Below, one piece after another: positions 28,139 to 36,264 of a stretch of DNA of 64,000 nt (position 1 is its first letter; each line of letters starts with the position of its first letter). The translations under genes and the position numbers were made by a program. The DNA comes from Erythrobacter sp. CCH5-A1 (GTDB lineage: Bacteria > Pseudomonadota > Alphaproteobacteria > Sphingomonadales > Sphingomonadaceae), in contig NZ_LSKQ01000231.1 of assembly GCF_001557115.1 (NCBI RefSeq), positions 1 to 64,000 of the forward strand, given 5' to 3'. Below the pieces are notes generated by a model. The model did no database searches. It saw nothing but the letters and a program-made list of their open reading frames with translations, and was not told the DNA's origin.

Positions 28139-28163
28139 TCCTGCCCCTTCGACAGGCCGCTGG

Positions 28164-28183
28164 ACGGGGGCGGAAACCCCCGT
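28164..28183 (+). terminator. Hairpin after the AlkA-like gene
   Basis: A 7-bp G/C-rich stem (ACGGGGG at 28164-28170 and its complement at 28177-28183) with a six-base loop follows the glycosylase stop by 26 bases. Only a weak T-rich tail follows, so termination may be partial. It separates the repair gene from the lasso operon. Confidence 0.45.
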
Positions 28184-28268
28184 TATTCAGCCTGCTAGGC
28201 CCTGCATTCGATAAGGGCGCAGAAGGTTTTTTGTCCGATTACCGGGCCGGGGCGTCGCCAGACATGAG

Positions 28269-30107
28269 ATGTCAATGTTCTACCTTGGCATAGGCGTGGG
28301 CCGCGAGCCTAGCGCGCGCGGCATCGCCGAGGCTTTGCTGCCCCATGCCGAAGGACGCATCGAAACCCACACCGGCCACGGGTGCCATGCCGTCTCGGTC
28401 ACACCCACAGCTTGGGGGGCGGCACGCCGCGAAATGCAGGTATGCGAGGAGGATGGCCTGGTGGCCTGCGCCTGGGCCCGGATCGACAACGCCCGCGATC
28501 TTGCCCGCGCGCTCGGCGATGAATCATTCGCGCTCGCCGCAGAAGCGCCGCGCCTCATCATCGCCGCCTACAGGAAGTGGGGCGAGGAGGCGCCGCGCCA
28601 CCTCGAGGGCGATTTTGCCTTCGCCATCCATGATCCCGCGACCGGTACAATCTTCGCCGCGCGCGACGCCCTGGGGATCCGGCCGCTCTACTGGATAGAG
28701 GGCCAGTCGGGCGCGGCCGGGGCCTGCGCCACTTCGATCCCCGCCCTGCGACAGGCAGCGGGCCGATTGCACGGCATCGATCCGGACTGGGTCGCCCGGT
28801 TCATCGCCGGCGCATCGATGTCGTGCGAGGCGACCCCCTTTCCCGGAATCTCCAAGGTGCCGCGCGGGCACAGCCTGCGCCTCACTGCCGACGGCGCGCG
28901 CCTTTCGCGCTACCACGACCTCGCCGATGAGATCGGAGAGCCCACCGAGAGTGAGGCGGCTTTGCTCGAACGCTATCGCGATCTGCTCGACAAGGCGGTA
29001 TCGGCACGCATGGCAGGGCACGGCGGCCTCGGGATCGAGATCAGCGGCGGGCTCGATTCCTCGACTGTTCTTGCTCTGGCCCTGCGCCATCAGGAAAGCG
29101 CGGGACGGCGGATCCACGGCTTCGGCTGGACGCGGCACGATCTGGAGGGGCCAGCGGTGATCGGCGTCAGCCAGCGGCTGGGTCTTGCGCATAATCACCT
29201 GCTTGCGGCCGAGACGGACCCGATCCCGCGCGACCGCGTGTGGTCGATCCTCGGCCATCCGGCAGAGCATGGATCGGCCACCCACCACTGGCCGATCTAC
29301 ACATTGGCACAGCAGCTTGGCGTGACAGGCTTGCTTTCGGGCTTTGGCGGCGATGAAGGGGTCACCAATTACGCGCCCAATTTCCCCCGCGAGATGCTGG
29401 ACCGGCAGGCTTATCTCACGCTGTGGAAGGCGCTCGCCGCCAATCCCGTGCTGCGCACCGCGAAGTTCGTGCGCGCGGTGCTGCGGCGGGGCTCGGGCAG
29501 TTTCTATTCGCGCAGATTGAGCGAAGCCGCCCGCCAGCGCGTCGCGCTACTGCCCCTTACCCGTGACGCCATCGCGCGGCTTGCGATCGACGATCGGATC
29601 CAGAGCGACGCGCAATACGATGCGCCTTTTGCGACGGTGAAGGCCTTCAGCGCCCACATGCTGTCGCGCCCCTTCGTCTCGACGCGCACCGAAAGCTGTT
29701 CGCTGATCGCGGCGAACAACGGGGTCGAATATGCCTGGCCGCTGCTCGATCGGCGGCTGCTGGCCTGCTTTCTCAGGGCCCCGCCGACCAGCTTTTTCCG
29801 CGATGGCATGGGGCGCGCCCTCCACCGGCGCGCGGTGGCCGGCATCGTCCCGGACGAACGCCGCCTCGCCCCAAGCAAATATCTCGGCACCATTGTCGAG
29901 CCCCTGCATCGACCGGCGGTTGAGGCGCACAGCGAACGGGCAGGCAGTTTGCCGGACTGGACCGGCCTCGAGCCGATGGTGCAGGACCTTGTCGACCGCG
30001 AGAAGATGGACAACCTCGTCCGGAACGTCTCGGCGCCTGGCGCTGGGACGCGCCAATCGTTGCGTGCGCTGGGGGAAGTGAACCAATGGCTGGCAAGCAA
30101 ACCATGA
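28269..30107 (+). CDS. Lasso peptide cyclase (asparagine synthetase-like, C protein)
   Basis: This 612-aa protein has an N-terminal glutamine-amidotransferase-like domain followed by an asparagine synthetase domain. The ATP-pyrophosphatase loop is SGGLDSS at residues 259-265. The N-terminus is MSMFYLGIGV and lacks the Cys needed for glutamine hydrolysis. This is typical of lasso cyclases, which adenylate a core Asp/Glu side chain and join it to the core N-terminus. True AsnB is unlikely given the PqqD, B2 and precursor genes nearby. It is the first gene of a six-gene plus-strand operon, with the kinase 13 bases downstream. No clear ribosome-binding site precedes the ATG at 28269, and the ATG at 28275 is an alternative. 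Confidence 0.9.
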   Translation: MSMFYLGIGVGREPSARGIAEALLPHAEGRIETHTGHGCHAVSVTPTAWGAARREMQVCEEDGLVACAWARIDNARDLARALGDESFALAAEAPRLIIAAYRKWGEEAPRHLEGDFAFAIHDPATGTIFAARDALGIRPLYWIEGQSGAAGACATSIPALRQAAGRLHGIDPDWVARFIAGASMSCEATPFPGISKVPRGHSLRLTADGARLSRYHDLADEIGEPTESEAALLERYRDLLDKAVSARMAGHGGLGIEISGGLDSSTVLALALRHQESAGRRIHGFGWTRHDLEGPAVIGVSQRLGLAHNHLLAAETDPIPRDRVWSILGHPAEHGSATHHWPIYTLAQQLGVTGLLSGFGGDEGVTNYAPNFPREMLDRQAYLTLWKALAANPVLRTAKFVRAVLRRGSGSFYSRRLSEAARQRVALLPLTRDAIARLAIDDRIQSDAQYDAPFATVKAFSAHMLSRPFVSTRTESCSLIAANNGVEYAWPLLDRRLLACFLRAPPTSFFRDGMGRALHRRAVAGIVPDERRLAPSKYLGTIVEPLHRPAVEAHSERAGSLPDWTGLEPMVQDLVDREKMDNLVRNVSAPGAGTRQSLRALGEVNQWLASKP

Positions 30108-30120
30108 AGGGCGTCCCGCA

Positions 30121-31086
30121 ATGACAAGCGTCACGACAGACGAACGCACCACGCCGGCTTCGACCGGCTACACCTACAGGGCCTGCGGCCTTGCCATCCG
30201 CAGCGACATTGCCCTGCCCGGCCTTCGTCCCGCCGCGCCCGGCACCGATGACGCGCCCGTCAGCATCACGCGCGGCGCAGTTTCCGCCAACCTCGACGCG
30301 CCGATCCTCAAGGCCGGCCCGAACTGGCAGCGCGGTGCAGATGCCTTCCTGCTCACGATCCCGGGGCTTGCCCGGTTCCTGATCAACGGCCGCGATGCGA
30401 TCACCTACCAACCGGACGAGGGCATCGCGGCGGACGACCTGACCGCCTTTCTCACCGGCAGCGTGCTTGGGATCCTGTTGCACCTACGGCAATCGGTCGT
30501 GCTCCATGCCAGCGCCGTGCTGGTCGGCGAACAGGCGGTGCTGTTCTGCGGCGCGTCGGGTGCCGGCAAGTCGACCCTGAGCGCCGCGCTCGGCAAGCGC
30601 GGTTACCCGATGCTGAGCGATGACCTGTGCGTGCTCGCGCCGCGTCCCGACGGACGCCTGTGGGTCGAAAGCGATGGCCGCCAGCACAAGCTGTGGGAAC
30701 GTTCGGTGCGCAGCCTCGATCTCGAGGAGCGTAAGGGTGCCGGCGTGCGCCACCAGATCAACAAGTTCTACGTCAGCCCGCAGGCCATCCACGCGGACGC
30801 GGCGCCGGTCGCCCGGCTTTACCAGCTGGTCGAGCAGCGCAACGGCCAGGCGCCGGGGATCGAGCCGCTGGCGCTCGCCGATGCGGCGATCACGGTGCGG
30901 CAGAACGCCTTCCGGCCGCGCATGATGTGGCAGCTCGAACAGAAGACCGATTACTTCCGCGTGGCGGCGCAGCTTTACGCGCAGGCGCGCATTGCCCGCT
31001 TTCGCCGGCCGTTCGATTTCGCCAGCCTCGACCACGGCCTCGACCTGCTCGAGAGCGACTGGGCGGTCGGGGAAGGCGACACCTGA
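30121..31086 (+). CDS. HPr kinase-like peptide kinase (lasso peptide tailoring)
   Basis: This 321-aa protein has the P-loop GASGAGKST at residues 144-152 within a segment typical of the HPr kinase/phosphorylase C-terminal domain. It lacks the full HPr-K N-terminal domain. In the paeninodin lasso system a homologous kinase phosphorylates the C-terminal Ser of the precursor. Every intact precursor at this locus ends in Ser, which fits that role. The gene lies between the cyclase (13-base gap) and the sulfotransferase (stop and start share one base, TGATG). The specific substrate is inferred, not shown. A general HPr sensor role is unlikely in this context. Confidence 0.85.
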   Translation: MTSVTTDERTTPASTGYTYRACGLAIRSDIALPGLRPAAPGTDDAPVSITRGAVSANLDAPILKAGPNWQRGADAFLLTIPGLARFLINGRDAITYQPDEGIAADDLTAFLTGSVLGILLHLRQSVVLHASAVLVGEQAVLFCGASGAGKSTLSAALGKRGYPMLSDDLCVLAPRPDGRLWVESDGRQHKLWERSVRSLDLEERKGAGVRHQINKFYVSPQAIHADAAPVARLYQLVEQRNGQAPGIEPLALADAAITVRQNAFRPRMMWQLEQKTDYFRVAAQLYAQARIARFRRPFDFASLDHGLDLLESDWAVGEGDT

Positions 31087-32015
31087 TGCCGCGCCCCTTC
31101 TGGCTCGCCTCCTATCCCAAATCGGGCAACACCTGGTTTCGCCTGGTGGTGGCCAACCTCCACGGCCCGCAGGACACCCCGGCAGACATCAACAACCTGC
31201 CCGAACGCGGCGGGATCGCCAGCGCCCGGCAGCCGTTCGACAACATCCTGCTGGTGGAATCCGGCCTGCTGACCCATGACGAGGTCGATCGCATGCGCCC
31301 GATGCTGCACCGTTTCATGGCGCAGGAGGACGACAGCGACTTCGCCGACCCGCTGCAGGCCCGCGAAGAGGAGGACCGCCTCGACGCGAAGGTCGGGCTG
31401 GTCAAGGTCCATGACAGCTACACCCTGACCGACAGGGGGGAGCCGGTGATGGGCGGGGCCGCGGCGGCAGGCGGCGCGATCGTGATCGTGCGCGATCCGC
31501 GCGATGTCGCCCCCTCGCTCGCCAACCATTCGGCACGCGACATCGACCGGGCGATTGCCGACATGGCAAACCCCGGCTTCGCCTTCTGCGCGGGCCCCAA
31601 TGCCCAGCCCAACCAGCTGCGCCAGCAGCTCCAGAGCTGGAGCGCCTGGCACGCCAGCTGGCTCGATCAGAGGGATATTCCGGTGCATCTCGTCCGTTAC
31701 GAGGACATGCAGGCCGATCCCGTGGCGACGATCGGCGCTGCGCTCGCCTTCGCGGGACGGCCTGCGTCGCGCGAGGCGCTCGAACGGGCGGTCGATCTGG
31801 CGCGGTTCGACCGTCTGCAGGCGATGGAAGCCGAAGCGGGGTTTCGCGAGGCCCCGCCGGGCCGCACCTTCTTCCGCCAGGGCAAGGCCGGGGGCTGGCA
31901 GAGCGAGCTCAGCGCAGATCAGGTCGCGCGCATCGAAAGCGACCACGCAGACATGATGGCACGGCTTGGCTATGCTGCGGCATCGCTACAGCCGGTCGCG
32001 GCCAGCAACGGATAG
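31086..32015 (+). CDS. PAPS-dependent sulfotransferase in the lasso operon
   Basis: This 309-aa cytoplasmic sulfotransferase has both PAPS-binding motifs: the 5'-phosphosulfate loop YPKSGNTWF at residues 10-18, and the 3'-phosphate motif IVIVRDPRDVAPSLANHS at about 132-149. The conserved C-terminal RYEDM block and the FFRQGKAGGW segment of the sulfotransferase_1 family are also visible. Translational coupling to the kinase and the PqqD gene 10 bases downstream tie it to peptide maturation. The acceptor could be Tyr or Ser/Thr of the lasso product. Four precursors carry a Tyr a few residues before the C-terminus (three of them D/E-Y-G-P-S), but two have no core Tyr at all, so the acceptor is unresolved. 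Confidence 0.88.
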   Translation: MPRPFWLASYPKSGNTWFRLVVANLHGPQDTPADINNLPERGGIASARQPFDNILLVESGLLTHDEVDRMRPMLHRFMAQEDDSDFADPLQAREEEDRLDAKVGLVKVHDSYTLTDRGEPVMGGAAAAGGAIVIVRDPRDVAPSLANHSARDIDRAIADMANPGFAFCAGPNAQPNQLRQQLQSWSAWHASWLDQRDIPVHLVRYEDMQADPVATIGAALAFAGRPASREALERAVDLARFDRLQAMEAEAGFREAPPGRTFFRQGKAGGWQSELSADQVARIESDHADMMARLGYAAASLQPVAASNG

Positions 32016-32025
32016 AGGAGGACGC

Positions 32026-32292
32026 GTGAAGTACCGGAAAAGCGAAAACTGGCTCGATGCCGCCGTGCAGGACGAAATGCTGCTGATGTGCTCGGAGACC
32101 GGCGCGTTCCGGTCGCTCAACGAGACGGGGGCGTTTCTGTGGCAGCAGCTCGATCATCCCCGCGCCGCGCCCGACCTTGCCGCCAGTCTCGCGGCCGAGT
32201 TCGCCGTCACCGAGGCGCAGGCGCTTGGAGACACCGAGGCCTGGCTGGCGGACATGGCGCAAGAAGGCATCATTTGTGCCGTGGACGGCTGA
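32026..32292 (+). CDS. Lasso leader-binding protein B1 (PqqD family)
   Basis: This 88-aa protein matches the PqqD-like RiPP recognition element. It has an N-terminal beta-strand region (WLDAAVQDEMLLMCSETGAFRSLNETGAFLW) followed by helices (LAASLAAEFAVTEAQALGDTEAWLADM). In lasso pathways B1 binds the YxxPxL part of the leader and delivers it to B2. The start is GTG at 32026 behind a strong GAGGAGG sequence. It is separated from B2 by a single base. Confidence 0.88.
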   Translation: MKYRKSENWLDAAVQDEMLLMCSETGAFRSLNETGAFLWQQLDHPRAAPDLAASLAAEFAVTEAQALGDTEAWLADMAQEGIICAVDG

Positions 32293-32293
32293 C

Positions 32294-32779
32294 ATGCCGC
32301 CGCGCCCGGCCCTGGACCGCAGCGGGTCTTGGCGGCGCCGGATCGCCTGGTGGATGCTGGTCGCCGAAGCGCTGATCCGGCTGACCGGGTTGAAACTGTT
32401 CCTGCTGGCCTATGGCGCCGAGCGCCAGCCGCGGCTCTACGGGCGGGCCAACCGGCCGGAGGTGGGGGCTGCCGCCAACGCCGCCTTTGATCTTGGCCCG
32501 GAGCAGGAGCGCATGGCGCGGCGGATCGGCAAGGCGATCGTGCGCGCGGAGGCGCTGTTGCCGTTCGACGTGGTGTGCCTGCCGCAGGCGCTGGTCGGGC
32601 GGCGGATGCTGCGCAACCGCGGCCTGCCCAGCGTGATGTTCTTCGGGGTCGAGCAAGGCAAGCCGATGAGCGCGGTGGGGACCCACGCCTGGCTCGTCGC
32701 GGGCGAGGCCAGAGTGACGGGCTTCCCGCAGGCGTCGCGCTATAACGTTTTCGCGTCCTACCTCGATCCGCGCGGCTGA
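32294..32779 (+). CDS. Lasso leader peptidase B2 (transglutaminase-like)
   Basis: This 161-aa protein corresponds to the stand-alone B2 cysteine protease that cuts the leader. A hydrophobic N-terminal helix region precedes the catalytic Cys in LLPFDVVCLPQALVGRRML. The catalytic His lies in THAWLVAGEARVTGF. An acidic third member of the triad is not obvious right after the His, where HAWVExDG is more usual, so catalysis may use a different acidic residue. The ATG at 32294 begins one base after the B1 stop. The frame continues upstream inside B1 but is not used. Confidence 0.85.
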   Translation: MPPRPALDRSGSWRRRIAWWMLVAEALIRLTGLKLFLLAYGAERQPRLYGRANRPEVGAAANAAFDLGPEQERMARRIGKAIVRAEALLPFDVVCLPQALVGRRMLRNRGLPSVMFFGVEQGKPMSAVGTHAWLVAGEARVTGFPQASRYNVFASYLDPRG

Positions 32780-32787
32780 GTCCCTTG

Positions 32788-33861
32788 ATGCGAGCCGTCC
32801 GCGCGCGCGTCCTGTTCAGCCTGCTGCTCCGAATGGCTGTGCGCCCTGCCCTGCGCGCTTGCCTGCGAGGGCATCCGGTGCGCGGCGGGCGGCTGTTGGT
32901 CGCCCATGCCTCCGCCTTGCTGCGCGACCGCCTGTGGCCTCATGAAGCGCGGCTGCTGAAAGCCGATCTGCCCCGCGTGCGGGCCGAGCGATCCCGGCTC
33001 TATCTCCAGTTCGAGCACCAATGCGCCCTTGCGCCTTATGCGCAAGCGCTGGCCCGGGCGGGACTGGCCGACAAGGCCGCCTTCGCCGTGTTCTGCCGCG
33101 ACGCGGGCCTCGCCGCCATTCCGACCGTCAGAGTGAGCGCGGCGGATGCTGCCGAATGGGAGCGCGCCTTTGCGGCGAGCGCGGGTGACTGCGCCTTCGT
33201 CAAGCCCGCCACCGGCAGCGGCGGCAAGGGCAGCGCGCTGTTGGAGCGCACCGGGGCGCAGGCCTGGCGGCTGACCGATGCTGCGGGGGTCCACGAAGGG
33301 AAGCTTGCCGCCGTCATTCGCGGTCATCGCAAGGCGGGCGCGTTGGTGATGCAACCGCTGCTCGCGAACCACCCGGAGCTTGCCGCATGGGCAGGCGCGA
33401 CGCTGGCGACCTTCCGCACCATCACGGCGCGAGGGCAAGATGGCGCGGTGCAGGTGCTGTCGATGCTGGCGGAAATTCCCTGCGGGGAGGAGCGGCCGCT
33501 CCCCAAGGGCTGGTGCATCATCGCCGTCGATCCGCGGACCGGCCAGCTGGCCCCGCTCGATGATGCCGCGCTGTCCGCCCTGCCCCCGGCGCCCCGGGAC
33601 CGTGCGGCGGGGCTTGCCGGACGGGTAGTGCCGCAGGCCGCCGCGCTGGCCGAACTGGCCTGCGAGGCGCACCGCCGGATCATCGCCGCTGCGCCCGAGC
33701 CGCTACCGCCGATGATCGGCTGGGACGTGGCTCTGGCCGAGGAAGGGCCGGTGCTGGTGGAGCCCAACTGGAACTGGTCGGTGGCGGCGCATTACCGCAA
33801 TCTTGCCGGGCTCGACCTCAGCCTCAGTCCGCGCTTTGCCGCCGCAGCCGCGCGCCGCTGA
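32788..33861 (+). CDS. ATP-grasp enzyme (sugar-transfer-associated type) in the lasso operon
   Basis: This 357-aa protein has ATP-grasp features: the nucleotide-binding loop FVKPATGSGGKG at about residues 137-148, and a C-terminal metal-binding E-x-N in LVEPNWNWS. The overall pattern resembles the sugar-transfer-associated ATP-grasp family (PF14397). The N-terminus is basic and hydrophobic. ATP-grasp enzymes activate a carboxylate and join it to an amine, thiol or similar group. Here the peptide C-terminus or an acidic side chain could be the substrate, which is inference. It follows B2 by eight bases. A TTG three bases before the ATG is a possible alternative start. The gene converges on the precursor array, and its last 100 or so bases are duplicated at 34139-34268. 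Confidence 0.8.
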   Translation: MRAVRARVLFSLLLRMAVRPALRACLRGHPVRGGRLLVAHASALLRDRLWPHEARLLKADLPRVRAERSRLYLQFEHQCALAPYAQALARAGLADKAAFAVFCRDAGLAAIPTVRVSAADAAEWERAFAASAGDCAFVKPATGSGGKGSALLERTGAQAWRLTDAAGVHEGKLAAVIRGHRKAGALVMQPLLANHPELAAWAGATLATFRTITARGQDGAVQVLSMLAEIPCGEERPLPKGWCIIAVDPRTGQLAPLDDAALSALPPAPRDRAAGLAGRVVPQAAALAELACEAHRRIIAAAPEPLPPMIGWDVALAEEGPVLVEPNWNWSVAAHYRNLAGLDLSLSPRFAAAAARR

Positions 33862-33888
33862 TCGCAGCGGGCGCAAGGTGCGCAGCGA

Positions 33889-34020
33889 TCAGGACGGCCC
33901 GAAGCTCGACGTCGAGTCCTCGAAGATGGAGATCGCCTTCTTCCCCTCTGGCGAAAGCCCCTCGGCGTCGGGGCGGATCAGCCGGGGCGCGGTGTAGGGG
34001 CGCTTTGACATTTCATGCAT
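33889..34020 (-). CDS. Lasso precursor peptide 1 (43 aa)
   Basis: The leader is MHEMSKRP then YTAPRLIRPDAEGLSPE, with Y1, P4 and L6 of the lasso motif in register. The inferred core starts at the next residue. It has ring GKKAISIFE (Gly1 to Glu9) and tail DSTSSFGPS, 18 residues in all. The usual Thr at -2 is Pro. The start at 34020 is preceded by GGAG at nine bases. It lies 28 bases beyond the ATP-grasp stop on the opposite strand, so the two transcripts converge. It has no core Tyr but several Ser/Thr. Confidence 0.85.
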   Translation of the reverse strand: MHEMSKRPYTAPRLIRPDAEGLSPEGKKAISIFEDSTSSFGPS

Positions 34021-34120
34021 ATGGGCTTGCTCCGTGTTCATGGCCCGCGAAAGTCTGGCGGAAGCTCAACGCGTGCGAACGTAGCTTTGCCATCGCAACT
34101 GCGCCAGCCGGCAGCGGGGA

Positions 34121-34268
34121 TCAGGAGGGGCGCGGCATGGGGCCGGTGCTGGTGGAGCCGAACTGGAACTGGTCGGTGGCGGCGCATTACCGCAATCTTG
34201 CGGGGCTTGATATCATCCTGCGCGCCCGCTTCACTGCCGCAGCGGCGCTGCGGCGATGGCAGCGTTAG
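34121..34268 (+). pseudogene. Duplicated 3' fragment of the ATP-grasp gene with a precursor-tail scar
   Basis: From 34139 to 34268 the plus strand repeats the last part of the ATP-grasp gene nearly base for base. It encodes GPVLVEPNWNWS and AAHYRNLAGLD, then diverges and stops. There is no upstream enzyme sequence, so it is not functional. On the minus strand at 34121-34138 the tail of another precursor (codons for Arg-Pro-Ser and stop) abuts the fragment. About 40 bases of its 3' flank match the flank of precursor 4. This marks an unequal recombination that duplicated a unit of ATP-grasp tail plus precursor. Confidence 0.8.
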
Positions 34269-34283
34269 CGTGTTGCGCAACGG

Positions 34284-34433
34284 TCAGGACGGCCCGTAAT
34301 CAACACCAACGCTTGTCGTCTCTCTGGAATTATTACTCTTTCCCTCGGGCGAAAGCCGTTCGGCCTCCGGGCGGATCAGCCGGGGTGCAGTGTAGGGGCG
34401 GGTCGCCCGCTCGGGTATCTGAACCTTGGTCAT
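34284..34433 (-). CDS. Lasso precursor peptide 2 (49 aa)
   Basis: The leader is MTKVQIPERATRP then YTAPRLIRPEAERLSPE. The inferred ring is GKSNNSRE, closing at Glu8 rather than Glu9 as in the other copies. The tail is TTSVGVDYGPS, giving a 19-residue core. A strong GGAGGT ribosome-binding site lies seven bases before the ATG. Together with the ATP-grasp fragment to its left it forms the second copy of the duplicated unit that includes precursor 1. The Asp-Tyr before GPS is a candidate sulfation site, and the final Ser a candidate phosphorylation site. Confidence 0.85.
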   Translation of the reverse strand: MTKVQIPERATRPYTAPRLIRPEAERLSPEGKSNNSRETTSVGVDYGPS

Positions 34434-34518
34434 TTACGTCACCTCCGGTTGATGGACGAGCCTGCACGAATGGGACGACAGCACCGGAACGAGGCCCGGT
34501 CGATGGGAAGTAGCAAGA

Positions 34519-34662
34519 TCAGGACGGGCCGGTGGTTGGATAAGGCGAAGCCGAATAGAATTCGGTGGCAGCGACATTTTTCTTGCCCTCAGGACACAAT
34601 CTTTCCGCTCCAGGGCGGATCAGCCGGGGAGTGGTGTAAGAGCGCTTTGCCGCTTCAGTCAT
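34519..34662 (-). CDS. Lasso precursor peptide 3 (47 aa)
   Basis: The leader is MTEAAKRS then YTTPRLIRPGAERLCPE, the only copy that keeps Gly at the G10 position of the lasso leader motif. Its Ser is replaced by Cys before Pro-Glu. The inferred ring is GKKNVAATE (Gly1-Glu9) and the tail FYSASPYPTTGPS, a 22-residue core. The ATG at 34662 is chosen to match the other copies. An in-frame ATG further upstream adds an unconserved extension. A GGGGG stretch precedes the start. Confidence 0.83.
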   Translation of the reverse strand: MTEAAKRSYTTPRLIRPGAERLCPEGKKNVAATEFYSASPYPTTGPS

Positions 34663-34760
34663 ATGGTTGCCCCCATAGTCATCGTCTGCACGTGCCGTGC
34701 GACAGTTCACTGTGCCTCGGCTATCATCGCCATCGCAAATGCGCCAGCCGATAACGAGGA

Positions 34761-34910
34761 TCAGGAGGGGCCATATTCCTGGGTATAGATTGCCTCAGCG
34801 GGATACATCCCTGCTTTTCCTTCCGGTGAGAGCCTTTCGGCTTGGGGGCGGATCAGGCGGGGCGGGGTATAGTGGCGGGCCGACAGTTCGGGCAACGGGG
34901 CTTGCGTCAT
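34761..34910 (-). CDS. Lasso precursor peptide 4 (49 aa)
   Basis: The leader is MTQAPLPELSARH then YTPPRLIRPQAERLSPE. The inferred ring is GKAGMYPAE (Gly1-Glu9) and the tail AIYTQEYGPS, a 19-residue core with Tyr in ring and tail. The ATG at 34910 matches the other copies; an ATG six bases upstream is possible. Its 5' flank shares blocks (GGCAC, GTCATGC, GGCTATGT) with that of precursor 5, so the promoter or leader region was duplicated with the gene. Confidence 0.84.
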   Translation of the reverse strand: MTQAPLPELSARHYTPPRLIRPQAERLSPEGKAGMYPAEAIYTQEYGPS

Positions 34911-35067
34911 GTCCATCCGACTCAGGCTATGGCGGGTCAGGCATACATAGCCACAACGGGCGCATGACTCCACGTGCCGAGACGACGCGGAATGCCGGCC
35001 CGCACTTTCGCCGCGAAGACGGAGCACCGGGGAAGGGGTCAGATCCAGATGCGGATCGACAATCCCA

Positions 35068-35226
35068 TCAGGATGGTGCGGTGGAATAGTCAGGGGGCGA
35101 CCCGGGGTGCTCGCTATAGGCGCGAACCAGCTTGCCTTCGGGACACAATCCCTGCGCAGCGGGGCGGATCAGGCGGGGCACGGTGTAGGGGCGCTTCGGT
35201 GCCTCAGGCAATCGGGCTGTCGTCAT
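35068..35226 (-). CDS. Lasso precursor peptide 5 (52 aa)
   Basis: The leader is MTTARLPEAPKRP then YTVPRLIRPAAQGLCPE. The inferred ring is GKLVRAYSE (Gly1-Glu9) and the tail HPGSPPDYSTAPS, giving a 22-residue core. It ends Ala-Pro-Ser, the only intact copy without Gly-Pro-Ser. A GGAAGAG sequence precedes the ATG. The leader segment AAQGL is shared with the decayed copy at 35741-35860, which suggests those two are the closest relatives. Confidence 0.84.
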   Translation of the reverse strand: MTTARLPEAPKRPYTVPRLIRPAAQGLCPEGKLVRAYSEHPGSPPDYSTAPS

Positions 35227-35410
35227 ATCCGCTCTTCCGTTGGCGCCAATCATCACGATCGGGCGTACATGATAGACATAGCCGAAGCGGAGGCATGACG
35301 CAAAGTGCCGAGCCGGGGCCCGTTCAAAGCCGGAGTGCTTGCGGGCGCTTTTCTCGTGCAGGCGGGCCGCCGGACATCGGGTCAGAACCCGGTGCCGCGC
35401 ATCAGCCCGA

Positions 35411-35554
35411 TCAGGATGGCCCGACGAGGCTACCGCTCTCAACAGCCGAGATAGCCGACTTCCCTTGTGGCGACAGTTCTTCCGCGTCAGGGCGGATCAG
35501 CCTGGGCGGCGTGTAGGGGCGACCCGAAAGTGCAGGCAACCGGGATTTCGTCAT
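35411..35554 (-). CDS. Lasso precursor peptide 6 (47 aa)
   Basis: The leader is MTKSRLPALSGRP then YTPPRLIRPDAEELSPQ. The inferred ring is GKSAISAVE (Gly1-Glu9) and the tail SGSLVGPS, a 17-residue core with no aromatic residue. This copy argues against Tyr as the universal sulfation target. The ATG at 35554 lies eight bases after GGAGAA. The residue before the core is Gln instead of Glu, and Pro remains at -2. Confidence 0.85.
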   Translation of the reverse strand: MTKSRLPALSGRPYTPPRLIRPDAEELSPQGKSAISAVESGSLVGPS

Positions 35555-35740
35555 TGCTCGTTCTCCACCAGACGCCGATCACCCCCTTGCGACGCGCTTG
35601 GGTGATCCGAGCCTGATCGCTGCATCATTCCTGACGCCCGAACAAGGCGCATTCAAAACCAGAATGGACCAAAGCGGAGCGCATAAGCCGCCGGAAGCCT
35701 TGGAGATTCTGTCAGAGCCCGGCGTTGTGTTCCGGCACCA

Positions 35741-35860
35741 TCAGTATGGTCCGTAAGAGGTGTCTGTGGGACCGGTGGATTCGATCGGGAGAATCCCGGT
35801 CTTGCCCCCTGGCAAGAGGCCCTGCGCAGCGCTGACGATGGACCGCGCAAAGCTGGTCAG
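35741..35860 (-). pseudogene. Decayed lasso precursor copy (no start, altered C-terminus)
   Basis: The frame reads ARSIVSAAQGLLPG followed by a core-like ring GKTGILPIE and tail STGPTDTSYGPY before a stop. It aligns with precursor 5 (PRLIRPAAQGL then PEGK). The Gly1 and Glu9 positions are intact, but the YTxPRLI part is degraded. There is no ATG or ribosome-binding site, because the 5' end runs into the end of precursor 7. The final Ser has become Tyr. It is most likely a dead copy. A second, weaker remnant reading RFGPF may lie at about 35653-35700. Confidence 0.6.
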
Positions 35861-36000
35861 GATGGACCGTAATCCGCCAAAAGTTCAAGCGAGGCGAAAT
35901 CTGCCTTTGCTTCAGGCGACAGCCCCATGCCATCGGGGCGGATCAGCCGGGGTGCGGTGTAGGGGCGGGCCGACGGTTTGCTCATCTCGGTCTTCGTCAT
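35857..36000 (-). CDS. Lasso precursor peptide 7 (47 aa), first of the array
   Basis: The leader is MTKTEMSKPSARP then YTAPRLIRPDGMGLSPE. The inferred core is AKADFASLELLADYGPS, with Ala instead of Gly at position 1 and Glu at 9. Ala1 is known from paeninodin. A strong GGGAGG ribosome-binding site sits eight bases before the ATG at 36000. It is the promoter-proximal copy if the array is one transcript. The 264 bases upstream, shared with the divergent SDR gene, contain a TTGACT on the minus strand at 36138-36143 but no good -10. Confidence 0.86.
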   Translation of the reverse strand: MTKTEMSKPSARPYTAPRLIRPDGMGLSPEAKADFASLELLADYGPS

Positions 36001-36264
36001 TCTCGTCCTCCCTTTGCAGCCACAGATCGGTACATTGCAGCGTGTGCCAGTCGATCCTGCTCGGGGCCTGCGACACGCTGATTGGCAGCACAAGCCTTGT
36101 ACAGAACCAGATTGGTTGATGGCATGATCGGGCCGAAAGTCAAGGAAAACAAGGCGAAGCGGATCAACTCCGCCCTGCCCCTGCGCCTCCCGCGCACTCT
36201 GCCTGCTGACAAGCGTGTCAGTCCGCACTAGACAGGTTTCAAACAGCAATCTGAGGGGATCTCA

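Follow-up and report, generated by a model that had tools for sequence, protein, structure and literature searches.

How can one set of peptide-maturing enzymes serve seven different peptides, and what would an ATP-grasp ligase contribute to them? These questions are raised by a locus in a 64,000-nucleotide stretch of the alphaproteobacterium Erythrobacter sp. CCH5-A1 (contig NZ_LSKQ01000231.1, positions 1 to 64,000; the whole stretch is referred to here as the window), in which six plus-strand enzyme genes, lying end to end, face seven minus-strand precursor genes, a gene order read directly from the DNA. The island is ~8 kb long and holds one predicted lasso enzyme set for seven precursors together with the remnant of an eighth. 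We regard it as probable that a single enzyme set matures all seven precursors into lasso peptides, and that a kinase, a sulfotransferase and the ATP-grasp ligase decorate the same peptides. The features tested place the island among lasso clusters of the phosphorylated type; its leader has Pro-2, its precursor array is large and its ATP-grasp gene is rare. A preliminary description had proposed such an operon opposite seven precursors sharing the motif YTxPRLIRP, and this was borne out by the open reading frames (ORFs), by the Pfam families of the enzymes and by the motif itself, which is present in all seven precursors (43-52 codons, between 33889 and 36000).

The enzymes carry the first part of the argument. 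B1, the cyclase, B2, the sulfotransferase and the ATP-grasp protein score above their Pfam cut-offs, and the kinase below its own. B2 also surpasses the curated NCBIfam cut-off for the lasso leader peptidase; B1 combines PF05402, expected of a lasso B1/RRE component, with matches to the solved lasso B1 proteins TbiB1 and TfuB1; and the cyclase retains the SGGLDS stretch in addition to PF00733. A motif check found His, the P-loop Lys and Asp-Asp in the kinase-like protein, which, together with the C-terminal Ser of the precursors, is the combination seen in phosphorylated lasso pathways, the curated kinase models being matched below cut-off. The PKSGNTW stretch of the sulfotransferase is presumably its 3'-phosphoadenosine 5'-phosphosulfate (PAPS) loop. 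The AlphaFold2 model of the ATP-grasp protein has a pLDDT (predicted local distance difference test) of 89, and fold searches with it return ATP-grasp ligases. A defence role was considered and set aside: the cyclase, kinase, sulfotransferase and ATP-grasp protein gave no PADLOC match.

The precursors carry the second part. With the register set by BsfA (Tyr-17, Pro-14, Leu-12, Gly1), those of the window read Y-17 ... P-14 ... L-12 ... P-2 E/Q-1 | G/A1 K2, with the same Tyr-17 to Gly1 distance as in BsfA. Because the core starts at Gly or Ala after P-E/Q, the penultimate leader residue is Pro, not Thr. A protein database yielded 19 further precursors of this pattern and a divergent one, P0037, giving a family of 26 (7 from the window and 19 from the database; P0018 and P0019 belong to the window itself). 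P0016 and P0017 each differ from a window precursor by a single change and were dropped, which left 24 non-redundant cores (7 from the window and 17 from the database). All 24 have Gly (20 cores) or Ala (4 cores) at position 1, Lys2, Glu8 or Glu9 and a C-terminal Ser, behind a leader with Pro-2, a conservation pattern that is directly visible. Shuffling residues within the cores 20000 times placed Glu8/9 in a mean of 3.5 of 24 cores, with a maximum of 12. The combination of a YxxPxL leader, a small first residue and Asp/Glu at positions 7-9 is likewise found in 24/24 and is lacking in P0037. These features support the lasso assignment made in the preliminary description, as do the B2 score and the B1 structure matches, and the kinase step that it proposed fits the catalytic residues and the last residue, Ser, of every core.

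Outside these positions the cores vary freely. Among the 24 family members, entropy is 2.5-3.3 bits at core positions 3-8 and 10-13 and no more than 0.5 bits at 11 of the last 17 leader positions. At the DNA level the window's seven precursors have a pooled leader ratio of nonsynonymous to synonymous differences (pN/pS) of 0.25, with pN 0.67 and pS 0.69 for core codons 3-8: leader codons are constrained, core codons 3-8 are not. Two window precursors match a database precursor at 29 of 30 leader residues and yet differ from it in the core (precursor 2 and P0020; precursor 7 and P0021). Since cores change while leaders are held, new products could arise without new enzymes.

From these genes we infer the following chemistry, as well as expression, export and function. 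B1 likely binds the leader YTxPRLIRP through Tyr-17, Pro-14 and Leu-12, and the C-terminal Ser, invariant across the cores, is the likely site at which the kinase phosphorylates the linear precursor. B2 would then cleave after the P-E/Q end of the leader, and cyclase C would close the ring around the threaded tail by joining Glu8 or Glu9 to the amino group of Gly/Ala1. The sulfotransferase may act on a hydroxyl or phenol of the tail, which is a guess. The ATP-grasp ligase, in the least certain step, is predicted to form an amide on a core Lys (Lys2 in the window), the partner being either an external acid or the C-terminus of the peptide itself.

The assignment of Lys comes from a survey of related clusters. 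Among 397 Sphingomonadaceae genomes, 226 had a kinase match; 76 of the listed kinase loci were examined, and 51 of these have a cyclase within ~10 kb. B1 accompanies 50 of the 51, B2 37, a sulfotransferase 33 and an ATP-grasp gene three (L037, L038 and L042). The sulfotransferase is thus common beside kinase-lasso genes in Sphingomonadaceae, and the ATP-grasp gene is the rare part. In L037 the ATP-grasp and B2 are fused in one protein, as seen directly, and each of the two Pfam domains scores above its cut-off. Searching 385 genomes across the class added five ATP-grasp lasso clusters, L143-L147, with kinase and cyclase within 10 kb; in L147 the kinase and sulfotransferase lie ~7.6 kb off. The preliminary description had called the ATP-grasp gene unusual: its rarity stands (3/51), and its recurrence in these other genomes limits the claim.

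Six of these clusters (L037, L038 and L143-L146) share one near-constant core ending in FLK(P/T)GS, behind Thr-2; for L042 a precursor was searched for and not found. Of ten ATP-grasp clusters, a precursor was identified in nine, and all nine of these carry a core Lys, versus 5 of 30 clusters without ATP-grasp, the clusters being partly non-independent; after related clusters were collapsed the link is 4/4 (p 0.003). Because Lys is present in all nine, it is a candidate target of the ATP-grasp. On a single origin of all lasso-linked ATP-grasps the tree gives no decision either way. Queried as a single protein, the ATP-grasp found no match in genome contigs, and an alignment query found one relative there; plasmids gave no match. 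The genus of G421, with 114 genomes, gave one partial match and no full-length relative. The same 114 genomes yielded no precursor, in a search that is weak for want of a positive control. Three consecutive ATPgrasp_ST genes were observed in L148:9169-12989, with no lasso gene found in that 20-kb piece.

The number of precursors was also compared. A heuristic scan turned up one or none in most clusters, two in L072 and L098, four in L067 and seven in the window. The scan required an acid at positions 7-9 and a small first residue, and its results are therefore no evidence that other clusters have these features; a looser scan recovered several of the same cores and, in addition, an acid-free core in L033. 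The preliminary description had regarded the precursor number as unusual, and seven is indeed the most per cluster here; multi-precursor lasso clusters are, however, already known (PMC13381572), and L067 has four. The latter (L067:2957-4793) is a kinase-sulfotransferase lasso cluster with WS[AT]PQVIDLDD leaders and cores beginning GG. In another genome, lasso clusters lie side by side (L143:581-17467), with three cyclases, two clear kinases and two sulfotransferases.

Several observations weigh against the pathway proposed here. The cyclase and kinase both fall under their NCBIfam cut-offs, and the island leaves no space for a gene encoding an exporter or an isopeptidase. The usual Thr-2 of lasso precursors gives way to Pro in 24/24 family members; leader ends of other clusters, as cut by the heuristic, have Thr-2 in 15 of 27 and Pro-2 in none. 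Thr-2 is usual rather than defining, Ile-2 having been validated in BsfA (PMC10368454, in the portion available). The Lys link was drawn from cores picked by eye in few independent lineages, the Lys positions differ among ATP-grasp clusters (2, 9 and fourth from the end), and a further precursor of L143, located 1.2 kb from the ATP-grasp, has no Lys and was assigned to a neighbouring cyclase in the count. The weightiest case is the nearest named relative, a Sphingomonadaceae metagenome-assembled genome (MAG) contig (L001/L033), which has kinase, sulfotransferase, B1, B2 and ATP-grasp in window order, at 61%, 67%, 47%, 62% and 45% identity, respectively. Its precursor (L033:3071-3226, minus strand) has a lasso-type leader, Pro-2, Gly1 and a GPS end, but neither Asp/Glu nor Lys2. 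There is no cyclase match on the 8.2-kb contig, which starts shortly before the kinase, and no orthologous cyclase was found elsewhere in the genome, where the matches are weak (best 68 bits, 31%). The product of this lineage would not be a lasso; either the MAG is incomplete or the lineage gave up the ring. On this evidence the tailoring genes and the leader seem to belong together as a unit independent of Glu9 and Lys2.

For the role of the ATP-grasp, two other accounts compete with an amide on Lys2. The ligase might add an amino acid or amine to the C-terminal carboxylate of the GPS end, making Lys irrelevant. We hold this to be possible, with the greater weight of probability elsewhere: the GPS end and Gly1 are the core features that P0037 shares, 17 of the 24 cores have no acid beyond the ring Glu and so the C-terminus as their sole free acid, and the fold matches include the peptide-extending ligases RimK and 8ynq, but the GPS end also occurs in L054, a cluster without ATP-grasp, and Lys is biased to the ATP-grasp clusters. 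The lack of a side-chain acid for the ATP-grasp fits the family (17/24) better than the window (2/7), because five of the seven window cores carry a spare acid, which counts against the proposed pathway and in favour of a graspetide-like product, where the ATP-grasp would link Lys2 to the Glu8/9 side chains and the lasso genes would be relics or otherwise used. Such a product would also suit the invariance of Lys2 and Glu8/9 in 24/24 and their joint absence from P0037, and the graspetide ligase PsnB is the first Foldseek match of the ATP-grasp model. However, L033 keeps its ATP-grasp with a core that lacks both Lys2 and any acid, the island's cyclase retains SGGLDS, and PsnB is not set apart from Ddl, RimK, LysX or DcsG, its absence from the 50 matches listed by a second structure aligner deciding little either way. 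As to the type of ligase, PF14397 is not a graspetide model and the fold matches do not differentiate between ATP-grasp subfamilies. Overall we consider a graspetide improbable.

A different objection concerns the array, which might be decaying, with the majority of the seven precursors silent and at most one of them matured. The leader region recurs as an 87-nt direct-repeat family of seven copies, which are 70-76% identical to the reference one. The 3' end of the ATP-grasp gene occurs twice (33745-33901 and 34140-34296), and each copy runs into a precursor end. These repeats suggest that the array grew by unequal duplication, in which a piece of the ATP-grasp gene was probably carried along and one precursor died. 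Decay is indeed visible in that one plainly dead precursor and in another perhaps reduced to its last residues (~34121, repeat D5), and the GC content of the array (62.4%) is below that of the operon (69.3%); nevertheless the leaders of the seven are constrained, as the pooled pN/pS indicates, and none of the seven has lost the conserved residues at positions 1, 2, 8/9 and the end, so general decay of the array appears quite unlikely. With the lasso pathway still preferred, a bolder extension can be stated, to which we give rather little credence: the ATP-grasp would be a new lasso tailoring ligase amidating the invariant Lys on any core behind a Pro-2 leader, possibly closing a second ring between Lys and the C-terminus, and the island would be a generator of doubly cyclised, phosphorylated and sulfated lassos.

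The surroundings indicate how the island came to its place. Ten relative regions (L118-L127) were compared for the flanks. L119, L120 and L121 lack the stretch corresponding to 28139-36193 of the window, and their two flanks lie 15, 15 and 0 bases from each other in the alignment; this empty site is observed directly and gives better bounds than the 28269-36000 of the preliminary description. Other DNA lies between the flanks in L122 (0.13 kb), L118 (0.5 kb) and L125 (2.2 kb); the pieces L123, L124, L126 and L127 do not contain both flanks, L124 and L126 running into unrelated ORFs, and a lasso-like gene was not seen in either of these two pieces. Among the flanking ORFs of the window, 12 of 17 have a Pfam family of housekeeping type (FtsZ, FtsA, Mur ligase, TamB and others), and a protein 1.5 kb from the island, which we take to be cysteine-synthase-like, matches 93 of 99 genomes of the family of G001, a Sphingomonadaceae MAG, at 60-86% identity, on which basis a sphingomonad host is assumed. 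The island was likely gained as a unit. Since the cargo between the flanks is varied, the site looks like a place of frequent insertion and may be a hot spot. This cargo includes a 663-residue ORF with a GGSYGGYM stretch in L125 (3693-5684, minus strand), presumably an S9 peptidase relative, an ORF in L126 (1-1100) that we assume to be beta-lactamase-like, a 181-residue ORF in L124 (1-560) and the 0.5-kb insert of L118 (8787-9297).

Table 1. Features of the lasso island, with window coordinates, strand and the evidence for each.
Feature	Position	Strand	Evidence or remark
Whole island	28139..36193 (edges approximate)		between HhH-GPD glycosylase gene and short-chain dehydrogenase gene; empty site in L119, L120, L121
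Predicted lasso cyclase C, asparagine-synthase-like, SGGLDS	28269..30107	+	PF00733 1.1e-29; lass_lactam_cya 200 bits (cut-off 525)
HPr-kinase-like peptide kinase (putative)	30121..31086	+	PF07475 2.3e-5 and HprK_rel_A 9.1e-12, both below cut-off; motifs
Sulfotransferase, stretch PKSGNTW	31086..32015	+	PF00685 9.3e-19; best solved matches SOT18, Teg12
B1, PqqD-like leader-binding domain, GTG start	32026..32292	+	PF05402 5.7e-16; solved TbiB1, TfuB1
B2, transglutaminase-like leader peptidase with Cys and His stretches	32294..32779	+	NF033537 58.2 bits (cut-off 33); PF13471
ATP-grasp ligase (ATPgrasp_ST)	32788..33861	+	PF14397 3e-20; AlphaFold2 model matches ATP-grasp ligases
Precursor 1, core GKKAISIFEDSTSSFGPS	33889..34020	-	ORF and leader motif; further ATG at 34041
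Partial copy of ATP-grasp 3' end and adjoining precursor end	34140..34296	+	82% to 33745-33901
Precursor 2, core GKSNNSRETTSVGVDYGPS	34284..34433	-	ORF and leader motif
Precursor 3, core GKKNVAATEFYSASPYPTTGPS	34519..34662	-	ORF and leader motif
Precursor 4, core GKAGMYPAEAIYTQEYGPS	34761..34910	-	ORF and leader motif
Precursor 5, core GKLVRAYSEHPGSPPDYSTAPS	35068..35226	-	ORF and leader motif
Precursor 6, core GKSAISAVESGSLVGPS	35411..35554	-	ORF and leader motif
Eighth-precursor remnant	~35741..35830	-	tail keeps G1 K2, E9; leader motif lost; end YGPY; repeat family D4
Precursor 7, core AKADFASLELLADYGPS	35857..36000	-	ORF and leader motif

If the proposed pathway is right, one enzyme set with a Pro-2 leader handles cores that share just residues 1, 2, 8/9 and the end, a tolerance that lasso engineers want, and the ATP-grasp is an added lasso tailoring enzyme with a specific target, for which the B2 fusion is an independent sign of role. 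In the lasso literature covered, in so far as its text was accessible, no ATP-grasp tailoring gene was encountered in any lasso cluster, and the accessible parts of two reviews of lasso tailoring do not name ATP-grasp as a tailoring enzyme; a putative sulfotransferase has been reported in lasso clusters of Firmicutes (PMC8498205, likewise in part).

Among known systems the island resembles the paeninodin/SyanA type (PadeK, ThcoK and SyanK, the last from the sphingomonad Sphingobium yanoikuyae), with which it shares the HPr-kinase homologue with His, Lys and Asp-Asp and the C-terminal Ser, according to the portions available of PMC9266682 and PMC8498205; it differs from that type in its seven precursors facing the enzymes, Pro-2, the sulfotransferase and ATP-grasp genes and the lack of room for a transporter. 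The BsfA cluster of Bradymonas sediminis likewise has the Tyr-17, Pro-14, Leu-12 and Gly1 spacing, a kinase and a residue other than Thr at -2, but there Ile-2, Asp8 and Ser3 as the kinase target stand in place of the island's Pro-2, Glu8/9 and conserved last Ser (PMC10368454, as far as available). Caulosegnins I-III, to go by the title of their report, are several lasso peptides from one cluster, as in the island, with three products there and seven precursors and one wreck here, on the strand facing the enzymes. Graspetide pathways (PsnB and relatives) resemble the island in having an ATP-grasp ligase with a matching fold in a peptide pathway, and are unlike it in that the island has lasso genes and that most of its family's cores have no spare acid. 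L037, L038 and L143-L146 share with the island the kinase-sulfotransferase-ATP-grasp trio, the cyclase and B1, but have a single FLK(P/T)GS precursor each, Thr-2 and an ATP-grasp, fused to B2 in L037, that falls into a separate, supported group of the tree.

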